DNA of 60,005 nucleotides from Sphingobacteriaceae bacterium (GTDB lineage Bacteria > Bacteroidota > Bacteroidia > Sphingobacteriales > Sphingobacteriaceae): contig CANHRG010000009.1 of the NCBI GenBank assembly GCA_947463785.1, positions 1 through 60,005 of the forward strand, written 5' to 3'. Numbering within the stretch: position 1 is the stretch's first letter; every line of letters begins with the position of its first letter. The notes below the pieces were generated by a model. That model was not told the origin of the DNA. It did no database searches and saw nothing but the letters and a program-made list of their open reading frames with translations. This document shows, in pieces, positions 1-4,771 of this stretch. Position numbers and translations under genes: made by a program.

Positions 1-110
1 AATCTCATTTACTATGCATGCATAAAAAATAATTTAGAATGCTTCTAAGTCTAATCGGCTTGATGGCTTGTTTTTTCGCCACTTTATTCACAATAATTTC
101 AAAAAATATT

Positions 111-139
111 TTCTGAAATGAAAAAAGAAACTACATTTG
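111..139 (+). promoter_or_regulatory. Promoter of tRNA-Phe
   Basis: A Bacteroidota-type -7 box, TACATTTG, lies at 132-139 and is followed directly by CAGTCC. A degenerate -33 box (TTCTG, 111-115) lies upstream. The tRNA starts 18 bases after the -7 box. The stretch TTTGCAGTCC is shared exactly with the rpsT and rpsU promoters in this window. Confidence 0.7.
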
Positions 140-157
140 CAGTCCTCAAAGGGAGCT

Positions 158-233
158 GGTACCATAGCTCAGTTGGTAGAGCAAAGGACTGAAAATCCTT
201 GTGTCGCTGGTTCGATTCCAGCTGGTACCACCA
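158..233 (+). tRNA. tRNA-Phe (anticodon GAA)
   Basis: The full cloverleaf can be folded by eye. The acceptor stem pairs GGTACCA with TGGTACC, the anticodon loop CTGAAAA carries GAA, and the T arm pairs GCTGG with CCAGC around TTCGATT. The discriminator A at 230 is followed by an encoded CCA (231-233). The tRNA-Thr and tRNA-Tyr genes at the right end of the window do not encode CCA. The gene is monocistronic, with its own promoter upstream and a terminator immediately downstream. It borders an accessory block, which fits the common use of tRNA genes as integration sites, although no duplicated tRNA 3' end is visible in the window. Confidence 0.97.
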
Positions 234-236
234 GAA

Positions 237-266
237 AGAGATCTTAGCAATAAGGTCTCTTTTTTT
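237..266 (+). terminator. Terminator of tRNA-Phe
   Basis: A hairpin pairs AGAGATCTTA (237-246) with TAAGGTCTCT (251-260), with one mismatch, around the loop GCAA. A run of T follows (260-266). It starts four bases after the encoded CCA. Confidence 0.85.
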
Positions 267-364
267 GTTTCTGAGGGTGTTTTTACGAAGGTTTTAAGCC
301 TGTTTTTAGACTGGTCTTAGGTTTTGTGCGAACGATTAAAGTTAAGTTATTTTTTCTTGATTTT

Positions 365-526
365 TCAAACTTTTGGCGCATCTACTGACTCATCTACTGG
401 CGCATGAGTCAAATCGAGTTTGCCTTCTTGTGTGAAGCTGTAATAGCCTTCAGGAGAGACTATCAAATGATCCAGTAATTCAATGTCTAATAGTGCTGCT
501 GCCTCTTTGATATTTTGTTTTAAATT
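365..526 (-). pseudogene. 3' remnant of a RadC-family gene
   Basis: On the minus strand, 53 codons stay open from an in-frame TAG (527-529) down to a TGA (365-367). The reading contains LLDIELLDHLIVS followed by EGYYSF and an EG-K ending. This matches the C-terminal end of RadC proteins; the intact RadC at 35980 has LLDLQVLDHLIFT and GYLSF in the same place. The catalytic HxHPSG part and everything before it are missing, so this is a scar of a second radC. RadC paralogues of this type are often carried by integrative elements in Bacteroidota, which agrees with the neighbouring tRNA. It accounts for most of the otherwise gene-free stretch 267-563. Confidence 0.75.
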
Positions 527-563
527 CTAGTTGATTTTACATCAAAAAGGCACTTCGGTTGTA

Positions 564-1433
564 TTACTTTAAACCTGATTGATTAAACACATTCTCTTGC
601 TCTTGTTTGTATTTTTTTAACAAGGATCCGATATTCCTGTAATAGTTGTTGCCAATACCTCTGTAAGTTGGATGGTAAATAACCGTAAAGCATGTCATAC
701 CAGAAAAGGCAATCTTTGCGCCAGTATTTGCGTTTAAATCCAGACTTTCCATCCGAATGCTCTCGAAATTTATCCCACTTATTTCAGACCAAGACTTGAT
801 GTAATCATTGCTAAAGCTATAAAATACAACAAGTTCAGGTTTGTGTGTTGAAATCAAAGTCTTCAATTGCTGGACTCGGATTTCTGCTAGCTGTTGTTTG
901 TAGGTCTCACGCGACTTTAAATATTCTATATCTGTCCATTTTGAATAGTTAAATGCAGTTATCCCGGGTGATGGTAATGGAAAAAGTTCTATTAAACAAT
1001 TTTCTGAGTCATGTCTCCCGAGTTCATCAGACTGATAGCATTTTATATCTTTCAAATTCAACTCATTCTCGCCCTTATAGCATAGTAATAACTTGATTAG
1101 ACCTCCCCATGTCTTCTGATATGTACTTTTGTCTCCTTTAAAGAATCTATCAAATGTTGAGTCACCGGCTCCTCTTATTAATGAGTGGAATTGATAATTA
1201 TCTAAGAGTGTAGGTTTTCCTGCGTTTTTCCAAATGTCTAACCTTGAAATTATTTCTTCAATGCTATTCCCACCACCCTCTTCCATGCCTATGAACCAAT
1301 ATTTGCCCTTTAAATTACCGTAACCATAGAAGGTTTTCATGTATTCCTCTAACAAAGCCCTGTCAATTTTCATAGCTAATTTATCAATACACTTTGGTGA
1401 AGTGTATTGAAGATACACCTTCTGTTTTATCAA
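564..1433 (-). CDS. Hypothetical protein, possible uracil-DNA-glycosylase-like fold
   Basis: A 289-residue protein that I do not recognise with certainty. It has no signal peptide or membrane segment. Four short motifs occur in an order that recalls the uracil-DNA glycosylase-like fold: a hydrophobic strand ending in FIGMEEGGG (about residue 48), LFPLPSP (about 150), a strand LVVFYSFSN (about 201), and HPTYRG near the C-terminus (about 254). This is an inference from motif spacing only. An internal start at residue 22 (position 1370) is as plausible as the first Met. The gene points back towards the radC remnant and is divergent from the 1637-3256 operon, with a 203-base region between them that holds a palindrome. 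Base composition is AT-rich, as in the rest of the accessory block. Confidence 0.6.
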   Translation of the reverse strand: MIKQKVYLQYTSPKCIDKLAMKIDRALLEEYMKTFYGYGNLKGKYWFIGMEEGGGNSIEEIISRLDIWKNAGKPTLLDNYQFHSLIRGAGDSTFDRFFKGDKSTYQKTWGGLIKLLLCYKGENELNLKDIKCYQSDELGRHDSENCLIELFPLPSPGITAFNYSKWTDIEYLKSRETYKQQLAEIRVQQLKTLISTHKPELVVFYSFSNDYIKSWSEISGINFESIRMESLDLNANTGAKIAFSGMTCFTVIYHPTYRGIGNNYYRNIGSLLKKYKQEQENVFNQSGLK

Positions 1434-1550
1434 ACAAAAAAACGATTGTAAGTGATGTTTAATGAGACACCGGCGGTAATGTGAGAATTAAAGCAAAACT
1501 GGGTTACTAATCCTATTTAAAAATTACCCTTAAAAATTTTAAAAGCTGTA

Positions 1551-1574
1551 AAAGTGAACAAAATTGATCACTTT
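1551..1574. promoter_or_regulatory. Imperfect palindrome, possible operator
   Basis: The half sites AAAGTGAACAAA and ATTGATCACTTT form a 24-base imperfect palindrome in which 10 of 12 positions pair. It lies between the divergent genes at 564-1433 and 1637-2701, about 63 bases before the latter. The size and symmetry suit a dimeric regulator. No regulator is encoded next to it, so the binder is unknown. The rest of the 1434-1636 intergenic region shows nothing I can assign. Confidence 0.35.
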
Positions 1575-1636
1575 GATATGACAAATAGTTATATTAGCTT
1601 ATGATTGGTTGATAACACATCATTCAACAAAACAAA

Positions 1637-2701
1637 ATGGGTTATTTTCTAACCGAGAACATGGTAATGGATCTCCAGAACTTCTGGTTTAAATCCAATC
1701 ATCCTCAAACTAATCCCAAGGGCTATTCAAGTTTACCTGATGTAGAATTGGTAAATTTTGATCTATCCAAATTGAACAGTAGAAAAAAGGACTTAATAGA
1801 GTTACTAGGAATAATCTATAATTACCAAATTTTTCAACCTGATTATTTTAAAAGTGATAAAGAGGACTTCAATGCATTTTATAAATACCTTAAAAGGGAT
1901 TTGATTGGTTCATACCCTTTCAAAGAATTCACAACTCAAGCTTTTGATACATTACCTGATGAAGACTTTAGCAAATGGTTGAAAAATGTCCTGGATACAA
2001 CGAATAATAGGGTTAAATGGACATCTGTTTTGATAGATTACTCTAGATCTGAAGAGAAAGAAACCATACTCAAGCACAAATACCATAGATTTTTACTACT
2101 GGCTGAAATTTGCCACCATTTGGATAAGATTCAAGTAAGGGATTATCAGCAAGCCAAGATCAAAATTGATTTAAAAGGAAAACTAATGGGTGAATTAGAT
2201 GCACTAGTTTATGGCCATAAACACAGCCTTTCAGCCTATTTAGGGCAGCATATTCTGAGAAACTTCCCTTTCAAAGATTACCTTAATTTTCACTCAGAGT
2301 CATGGTTAATCAATAAAAAAGGTGTATATGAGCATTATACCCCAATGTCGTTTTTTAGAGATCTTATTTGGGTTAAGTACATCGATCGGCTAGACCAAAA
2401 ATTATTATTTGATTATGAAGACAGTAATTACAGGGCTTATACCATCGAAGAGTGGCTTTCAATTTTATGGAACAGATACAGAACCATTTTTATTTCTAGG
2501 ATTGAAGATAAAAATTTGAATAAAAAACAAAAATCCAGAAGAGAACCGGATGCTTACTGCAAACTAGGTATAAAGGTGAATAATTTAGAGCTGTGGGAAG
2601 AACTGCATAAAATTGAGCATTTGATAACTTTACATCATACACACAATGAAACTAGCCGTAATTGGAAGCAGATCATTAACAAACAGAGAATTAGTAATTA
2701 A
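1637..2701 (+). CDS. Hypothetical protein, accessory operon gene 1
   Basis: A 354-residue soluble protein, with no recognisable domain, signal peptide or transmembrane helix. It is rich in aromatic residues and lysine. Visible features are a HxH-type cluster (ICHHLDKI, about residue 158), YGHKHSLSAYLGQH (about 193-206), a YTPMSFFRDLIW block (about 238) and a LHHTHNE stretch near the C-terminus. The many histidines could bind metal, but no known catalytic signature is evident. Alternative starts exist at Met 9 and Met 11. Its last 56 bases overlap the start of the SLOG gene at 2646 in another frame, which implies a common transcript and perhaps coupled translation. It belongs to the AT-rich accessory block next to tRNA-Phe. 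Confidence 0.75.
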   Translation: MGYFLTENMVMDLQNFWFKSNHPQTNPKGYSSLPDVELVNFDLSKLNSRKKDLIELLGIIYNYQIFQPDYFKSDKEDFNAFYKYLKRDLIGSYPFKEFTTQAFDTLPDEDFSKWLKNVLDTTNNRVKWTSVLIDYSRSEEKETILKHKYHRFLLLAEICHHLDKIQVRDYQQAKIKIDLKGKLMGELDALVYGHKHSLSAYLGQHILRNFPFKDYLNFHSESWLINKKGVYEHYTPMSFFRDLIWVKYIDRLDQKLLFDYEDSNYRAYTIEEWLSILWNRYRTIFISRIEDKNLNKKQKSRREPDAYCKLGIKVNNLELWEELHKIEHLITLHHTHNETSRNWKQIINKQRISN

Positions 2702-2987
2702 AAAGCTTGATGAGTTGAAGGATGAAGTAGAATTACTGGTATCTGGAGGTGCTAAGGGAGCTGATTTACTGGCACAAAAATGGGCTGAAGAGAATAATAT
2801 AGCCACGAAAATATTTAAACCTGAATGGGGAAAGTATGGTAAGTCGGCTGGAATCTTAAGAAACAAGAAGATCATCGAATCATGTGACTACTGCATAGCA
2901 TTTTGGGATGGTATTTCAAGGGGAACCAAAAGTTCGATTGATTTTTGTGTAAAAATGAATAAACCCTATCTTATAGTTAATCAATAA
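2646..2987 (+). CDS. SLOG-fold protein, DUF2493/YspA-like
   Basis: A compact single-domain Rossmann-like protein of 113 residues. The N-terminal strand and glycine turn read MKLAVIGSRS. The nucleotide-binding GGAKGAD lies at about residues 34-40, EWGKYGKSAGILRN at about 60-73, and FWDGISRGTKSSI at about 87-99. These match the DUF2493 branch of the SLOG superfamily. Members of that superfamily bind nucleotides or nucleotide-derived ligands, and several occur in phage-defence operons. The gene starts inside the previous gene (56-base overlap) and is followed after 5 bases by the cysteine-rich gene, so all three are probably one operon. The ligand and role here cannot be read from sequence. Confidence 0.88.
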   Translation: MKLAVIGSRSLTNRELVIKKLDELKDEVELLVSGGAKGADLLAQKWAEENNIATKIFKPEWGKYGKSAGILRNKKIIESCDYCIAFWDGISRGTKSSIDFCVKMNKPYLIVNQ

Positions 2988-2992
2988 ATTAA

Positions 2993-3256
2993 ATGTCAAA
3001 ATGTATCTATTGTGGATATGGCCAAAATGCAGGATCATACTGCGCCAAGAGTCCCATTTCGAAATGTGTAGTTATTAATGAGGGTAGATGTAGTTATTGT
3101 GGACATGGTCAGAATGCAGGCTCATATTGTGCCAAGAGTCCAATATCTAAATGCGTAGTTCCTAAAGCTGGGAAATGTAGTTATTGCGGTGGTTCTACTG
3201 TAGGATCCTATTGCGCCAAGAGTCCAAGTGGAAAGTGTATTGCTACCCCGTATTAG
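2993..3256 (+). CDS. Triple-repeat 12-cysteine protein (zinc-ribbon-like modules)
   Basis: An 87-residue protein made almost entirely of three repeats with a 29-residue period. Each repeat carries four cysteines: C4, C7, C17, C25; then C33, C36, C46, C54; then C62, C65, C74, C82. The core reads CxYCG, NAGSYCAKSP, KC. The spacing CxxC-x8/9-C-x7-C suggests one zinc site per repeat. Single-copy modules resembling this occur as small C-terminal or stand-alone zinc-ribbon-like pieces in bacterial accessory genes, as far as I recall. It follows the SLOG gene by 5 bases and is the last gene of the operon. A nucleic-acid or protein-binding role is a guess. Confidence 0.8.
   Translation: MSKCIYCGYGQNAGSYCAKSPISKCVVINEGRCSYCGHGQNAGSYCAKSPISKCVVPKAGKCSYCGGSTVGSYCAKSPSGKCIATPY
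3002..3256 (+). repeat. Three in-frame tandem repeats (87-base period)
   Basis: The units begin at 3002, 3089 and 3176, and the third is slightly shorter. They are well conserved at the DNA level (for example GCCAAGAGTCC in all three), which points to recent duplication within the gene. Confidence 0.85.
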
Positions 3257-3397
3257 GGCACTTAAATTAGTTAGAGGTGAACTCTTGTTGATATAACGTT
3301 TGAGATTAGATACTCTAATAAGTTAGTTCTTAGGGGATGCTCCATTTAATAGTAGGTGATGAGTTGAAAATGGTGGTCATTAGTATGGCACTGTTCT

Positions 3398-4771
3398 TTG
3401 GAAGACGTGCCTCAGGGTACTGCCATTACCAACATGGTACCAACAGTTGGCGGAGGAGCGGTCATAACCTATACGATTGCCCCATCTTTACCATCAGGAA
3501 TTACCATTAATGCTACAACAGGTATTGTATCGGGTACCTTAACCAGTACCCAAACAGGCTCACAAACCTACTCGGTAACAGCTACAAATACCGGTGGTTC
3601 TGCAACGGCCACCATTACCTTAGTATTTAACAGTGCACCAACCGACATTGCTCTAAGTTCAAGCAGCATCGCCGAGAACAATGCGGCGAATGCTACGATA
3701 GGTACCTTAAGCAGTACCGATCCGGATACCGGCGATACGCATACCTACACGCTAGTAAGTGGTGCAGGCAGCACAGATAACGCTGCATTTAACATTAGCG
3801 GCAACAATTTGCGAGCCACTGCAGCCTTAGACTTTGAGACCAAATCGAGCTACAGCATCCGCATCAGAACTACTGATGCAGGTGGACTAACTTTCGATAA
3901 AGTGTTTACGGTGAGTGTAACGAATGTAAACGAAACACCGACTAACATTACTTCAAGCCAGACAGCCATTTTTGAAGGCAATGCTACAGGCGCTACGGTA
4001 GGTAATTTAAGCTCAACCGATCCGGATGCCGGCGATACGCATAACTATACCTTGGTTAGTGGTGCAGGTAGTACAGACAATGCCTCATTCAGCATCTCTG
4101 GTAATCAGTTAAAAGCAGCGGCAGTACTCAACTTCAAGACCAAGAATAGCTATAGCATCCGCATTAGAACTACTGATGCAGGTGGCTTAAGCTTCGAGAA
4201 GGTGTTTAGCATCACGGTACTGGAATCGCCATTTGCTACAGGAACTGGAAATTTACCAGGCAGTCAACAAATTACAGCAGCCAGCAACGATGTAACCATT
4301 AGTAAGGGATACAGTTCTAACCTGGATGTTACTGGTAAAGACCTGGTAAGTTACAGATGGAGCCCAGCCATTGGTTTGAGCGCTACCAACATTGCCAACC
4401 CAATTGCCAGTCCGAGTGAAACCACCCGTTATACCGTAACGGTAACCAACAACCTAGGCTTAAGCACGGTGGTATACGTAACGGTAAATGTAATTGAAGA
4501 TTACAACCTTACGCCAAACAATGTGATAACACCAAATGGCGATGGAGTAAACGACACCTGGGTGATAGGCAACTTGAACACCTACCCAGACAACACCGTA
4601 CAGCTATTTGACAAAGCAGGCCGCATGTTGTATCAGGTAAAAGGTTACCAGAACGACTGGGCGGGTATGCTGAATGGAAACCTGTTGCAAGAGGGTGCAT
4701 ATTACTATGTGATCCGTATAGGCAATAAAGGCTTCATCAAGAAGGGATTCATCAACATCATTAGAGAATGA
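3398..4771 (+). pseudogene. 5'-truncated T9SS-targeted adhesin (Ig/cadherin-like repeats, type B CTD)
   Basis: The reading frame is open from 3368 but has no ATG and no signal peptide; the first possible start is a TTG at 3398. The protein begins in the middle of an Ig-like module (residues about 5-78). Two 100-residue cadherin-like repeats follow (81-180 and 181-277, each with STDPD-GDTH and GAGSTDNA). Next comes a linker domain, and then a gliding-motility-associated type B C-terminal domain (about 370-457, with ITPNGDGVNDTW and LFDKAGR). Intact members are long, Sec-exported and handed to the type IX secretion system through this domain. Here the N-terminal part is lost exactly where the AT-rich accessory block ends, so it is probably a remnant. 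The codon use is visibly more GC-rich than that of the block. Its stop overlaps an ATG of the PorP gene. Confidence 0.8.
3638..4237 (+). repeat. Two cadherin-like repeats of 300 bases
   Basis: Codons 81-180 and 181-280 of the truncated adhesin are direct repeats, with long identical stretches around TAGCATCCGCAT and ACTACTGATGCAGGTGG. This is a typical extracellular stalk repeat. Confidence 0.85.

Follow-up and report, generated by a model that had tools for sequence, protein, structure and literature searches.

A YAcAr-family SLOG gene and two orphan genes on one strand at a variable site beside tRNA-Phe in a Sphingobacteriaceae bacterium

Introduction

The Thoeris system consists of ThsA, a SIR2-SLOG protein, and ThsB, a TIR protein. 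SLOG domains sense or process ligands of the ADPR type (PMC9503650; PMC7824862), and homologues of the SLOG-fold protein DprA serve as the antitoxins of shosTA, syrTA, and rqlHI, with protection against phages given by a pair of DprA and PRTase (PMC9122126).

Here, we describe three genes around a small SLOG protein in a window of 60,005 nucleotides, the window being the whole stretch of DNA that was analysed (contig CANHRG010000009.1 of a Sphingobacteriaceae bacterium, positions 1 to 60,005). The three genes are:

1637–2701, + strand: gene 1, a 354-aa orphan protein, candidate effector (ORF list, codon statistics)
2646–2987, + strand: gene 2, a 113-aa YAcAr-family SLOG protein (PF10686, phrog_289, fold model)
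2993–3256, + strand: gene 3, an 87-aa protein with three 4-Cys units, predicted zinc binder (ORF list, repeat analysis)

With ShosTA, PsyrTA, and RqlHI, the trio shares the pairing of a DprA/SLOG-fold protein with a larger one in a tightly packed operon, the model of gene 2 matching ShosA with a Z score of 12.8. It differs from them in that gene 1 reveals no PRTase or helicase match and in that a third, Cys-rich gene is present; moreover, ShosA has about 300 aa, whereas the SLOG protein of the trio is a stand-alone domain of 113 aa. The likeness to Thoeris lies in the SLOG fold of the ligand-sensing domain of ThsA (Z 12.0), but none of the three proteins carries a SIR2, TIR, or macro domain (Pfam, PADLOC). 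To the YAcAr (YspA, cpYpsA-related) SLOG family (PF10686/DUF2493), gene 2 is similar along the profile and in all strongly conserved positions; while the partners of this family elsewhere are NAD-metabolite, SIR2, AAA+, or WYL genes, those found here are orphans.

Results

The layout that had been proposed in a sequence-only reading of this DNA, namely three genes on the forward strand with an overlap of 56 bases and a gap of 5 bases, was reproduced from the open reading frames: genes 1 and 2 share positions 2646–2701, and genes 2 and 3 are separated by positions 2988–2992. The start codon of the SLOG gene is set by homology (MKLAVIGSR), and the 56-bp overlap is therefore genuine. The frame of gene 1 is not a product of chance, since 354 stop-free codons would be expected with a probability of about 1e-13 at its own base composition and since it has the top codon score among its six frames, by a small margin. 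Overlapping same-strand genes and the 5-bp gap suggest that all three are located on one transcript. Upstream of the trio, a single match to the Bacteroidota promoter pattern was detected at 1572–1600, a pattern that is not enriched in the window (29 matches vs. 34 expected by chance), and a search for an intrinsic terminator 3' of gene 3 found none.

Gene 2 is a full-length YAcAr-family SLOG protein, which covers the PF10686 profile from position 1 to 66 of 66 with 57.3 bits at a cut-off of 28.2 (Pfam; E 1.4e-15) and matches phrog_289 with an E value of 5e-30 (PHROGs). Its model, based on an alignment of 28 sequences, reached a pLDDT of 96.6, and the top fold matches were solved SLOG structures, namely a molybdenum cofactor carrier (Z 13.8), YpsA (13.5), and DprA (13.1), with ShosA, ThsA, and LOG (10.5) as further SLOG matches; the alignments to YpsA, DprA, and ThsA span 110–112 residues. 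The SLOG identity assigned before thus stands on a score over the gathering threshold, on the fold, and on the retained GSR and SGGAKGAD loops. Among 90 SLOG relatives, 26 positions are at least 90% conserved; gene 2 retains every one of them, including G7, S8, R9, S33–A36, G38, D40, and AFWDG, and therefore looks functional. The best PADLOC matches, ShosA and PsyrA, are both weak and confined to the SLOG part that these proteins have in common; for the ShosA profile, the E value is 4.4e-4 over residues 3–54 only, and the fold similarity to ShosA is common to all SLOG proteins. Relatives of gene 2 are encoded by at least 330 phage records, 17 plasmid records, and 11 IMG/VR contigs, with at least 553 candidate stretches in GTDB contigs.

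The product of gene 3 is built of three 4-Cys units within 87 residues, two of them reading CxxC-x9-C-x7-C and one CxxC-x8-C-x7-C; across the three units, 15 columns are invariant. This confirms the triplication with 12 cysteines noticed earlier. Units 1 and 2 show 78% DNA identity, with 10 synonymous and 6 non-synonymous codon differences, a synonymous excess that argues for a selected protein and not a chance frame. The four thiols in each unit suggest that one zinc ion is bound per unit. Compared with known zinc-ribbon families, the best Pfam E values of the 4-Cys unit were 0.4–0.9, all under the gathering scores, and no relatives or family were found in Pfam, NCBIfam, PHROGs, PADLOC, phage collections, and sampled genomes; in IMG/VR, a scan with a degenerate nucleotide pattern of the 4-Cys unit gave no match. 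HMMER matches with E values of about 0.002–0.01 in several genomes were dismissed as chance, as they lacked the four-Cys spacing or crossed stops.

For gene 1, no convincing match was obtained in Pfam, NCBIfam, PHROGs, PADLOC, and PDB. Relatives were detected neither in phages, plasmids, IMG/VR (two scans), and GTDB contigs (peptide-pattern search), the reach of the peptide patterns being close relatives only, nor by HMMER in 150 related, 395 phylum-wide, and 350 order-wide genomes, which are overlapping samples of the phylum. A TPR protein in genome G010 at 28% and fragments crossing stops turned out on inspection to be chance matches, and a match to pP_pnuc_2 (E 0.036, residues 160–222), with a faintly nuclease-like GELDALV stretch, was under the cut-off. 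The single-sequence structure model had a pLDDT of 33 and offered no usable fold; about 15 of the 354 residues are His, as counted by eye. Membership in a known housekeeping family, which the sequence-only reading had named as a finding that would refute its proposal, can be rejected because the gene is absent from the congeners; a family match is lacking in the databases named above as well. Across all three proteins, PRTase matches were missing at E values up to 1 (Pfam, PADLOC, NCBIfam).

The surroundings of the trio display the following features:

158–233, + strand: tRNA-Phe (GAA), which probably anchors the variable site (ARAGORN; island of G003 between tRNA-Phe copies)
374–526, - strand: radC 3'-end remnant, the homology to G004 stopping at 526 (93% identity of window 1–526 to L136)
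564–1433, - strand: orphan ORF of 289 aa, divergent from the trio and located within the same insert (ORF list; no family match)
3337–3377, - strand: 41 bp that repeat the 3' end of a 96-aa ORF and mark where the insert ends on the right (97–98% identity)
3398–4771, + strand: T9SS adhesin (CHU_C, cadherin) truncated on its N-terminal side, forming the right flank (Pfam CHU_C and Cadherin; intact in G004)

Positions 1–526 of the window correspond to the radC/tRNA-Phe region of congener G004 (L136, G004:C68), in which radC is intact. Both the tRNA neighbour and the radC scar claimed earlier are real, with a tRNA-Phe called by ARAGORN and the C-terminal end of RadC encoded at about 374–526, and so is the AT-richness, with a GC content of 34% across 527–3337 vs. 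40% across 5850–60005. The insert is absent from five congeners, as seen in part by direct comparison; together with the low GC content and the rearranged tRNA-side locus, this agrees with the accessory character that had been proposed. On another contig of G004 (L137), the adhesin is a complete ORF of 1932 aa beside PorP and pabA; the N-terminal part that the adhesin of the window lacks was found nowhere else in the genome studied here.

The 96-aa ORF whose end is repeated in the 41-bp copy lies in full on contig C4 of the same genome and is also present in G004. On C4, this ORF adjoins a second, 3'-truncated copy of radC (G000:C4:98168-98632, L156), sharing about 100 bp of radC with the window remnant, and three genes that flank radC in G004. 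Congener G003 carries an island of about 9 kb between two tRNA-Phe copies (L139, G003:C1:796000-809500), in which integrase-like, methylase-like, and helicase-like genes were seen by eye. As a tRNA-Phe is located near pabA in G005 too, the two flanks of the window are plausible natural neighbours. Based on this congener comparison, with its truncated flanks, relocated radC, and G003 island, this is a turnover site, a variable locus at tRNA-Phe that has been rearranged repeatedly and in which the trio is accessory cargo of horizontal origin.

Two further observations concern the insert. The 96-aa ORF (L147, G000:C4) ends in NEWIPYHHFQLITYY, and its 41-bp copy may have been left by the event that gave rise to the right edge through rearrangement. 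The ORF at 564–1433 has no family match in Pfam, NCBIfam, PHROGs, and PADLOC, and its stretches KYWFIGMEEGG and VIYHPTYRG are, by eye, faintly like motifs A and B of uracil-DNA glycosylases.

For the question of recurrence, 91 SLOG neighbourhoods (11 viral and 80 from GTDB contigs) were fetched, with flanks of about 6 kb where these could be had, and all open frames of the fetched loci were searched by phmmer at full sensitivity. SLOG relatives came up, but no relative of gene 1 or gene 3 was present in any of the 91, and the trio is therefore a singleton so far. The proposal of an undescribed operon is not supported as far as a recurring system is concerned, the partners being absent from these neighbourhoods and from every collection searched; within these searches, the three genes never co-occur elsewhere, which is one of the two findings that the sequence-only reading had named as refuting it. 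Other YAcAr SLOG genes are located beside NAMPT, NADAR, and macro genes in phage-type contigs (L010–L014), beside SIR2 in L030 and, by similarity, in L034, beside AAA+ ATPase and WYL genes in L034, and beside an AAA+ gene in L026 and L039, with TerD in L026 as well; none of the neighbours resembles gene 1.

In several unrelated bacteria (L026, L034, L039, L041), genes for an AAA+ ATPase, a helix-turn-helix/WYL-type regulator, and a YAcAr SLOG protein occur together, as judged by Pfam domains for L026 (AAA), L034 (AAA, WYL), and L039 (AAA) and by similarity for the remainder. As a candidate for a recurring system, this group is more convincing than the trio of the window.

Discussion

The known part of this locus is the SLOG family in a variable site beside a tRNA gene; the unexplained part is the two orphan genes. 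As the reading that we favour, at a probability of about 0.4, the trio would be a cassette gained by horizontal transfer, with the SLOG protein as the sensor of a nucleotide ligand that keeps an orphan effector in check or sets it off, as is reported for the DprA-like antitoxins of ShosTA-type systems. Genes 1 and 2, overlapping as they do, may be translationally linked; the SLOG protein would use its conserved GSR and SGGAKGAD loops to bind single-stranded DNA or a ligand of the nucleotide type, and it would hold or trigger the gene 1 product, forming a two-part sensor-effector or toxin-antitoxin-like unit, with the 12-Cys protein as a putative zinc-binding accessory factor or a passenger. 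The intact SLOG positions, the fold matches, ShosA and PsyrA as the best PADLOC matches, the close packing of the genes on one strand, and the absence of the insert from congeners speak for this reading, while the lack of both partners in all 91 other SLOG neighbourhoods, a gene 1 that has neither a family match nor a confident model, the weak PADLOC matches, and the different neighbours of other YAcAr SLOG proteins speak against it. The trio is not ShosTA, since gene 1 has no PRTase match, and by analogy it may work like a ShosTA-type system. That it represents a new small defence system, composed of a stand-alone YAcAr SLOG sensor, an unseen effector family, and a triple 4-Cys zinc protein, we regard as improbable.

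Almost as likely as the sensor-effector cassette is a pile of unrelated accessory genes in a turnover site, in which a phage-type SLOG gene, an orphan, and a repeat gene share a transcript by chance or convenience and have no joint function. The singleton arrangement would be expected from this, as would two truncated genes as flanks, a second, divergent orphan ORF in the insert, and the relocation of radC and its neighbours on C4, but the overlap, the short gap, the single strand, and the intact frames exceed what loose stacking needs. Rather unlikely is a counter-defence or NAD-metabolite module of a phage or satellite, with a SLOG protein that degrades or senses immune signals of the ADP-ribose type and small host-takeover genes as its neighbours. 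It is consistent with the many phage records encoding a gene 2 relative, with the NAMPT, NADAR, and macro genes downstream in the closest viral SLOG loci, and with the proposal by Iyer et al. that cADPR-type signals are targets of viral SLOG domains (PMC9503650); on the other hand, the insert carries no phage structural or replication genes, and phage relatives of genes 1 and 3 are lacking. An artefact of annotation or assembly, meaning chance frames or a chimeric contig, comes to mind because the window begins at a contig end and both edges of the insert are truncated genes, yet it is very improbable in view of the open frame of gene 1, the conservation of the SLOG protein, the synonymous excess in the Cys repeats, and the tRNA-Phe near pabA in G005.

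If the trio is not one unit, it is another case in which orphan cargo lies next to a tRNA gene. If the three genes do act as one unit, gene 1 would represent a new effector family for SLOG-controlled conflict systems, and the trio would provide a function for the stand-alone YAcAr SLOG proteins, which are present in hundreds of phage genomes.
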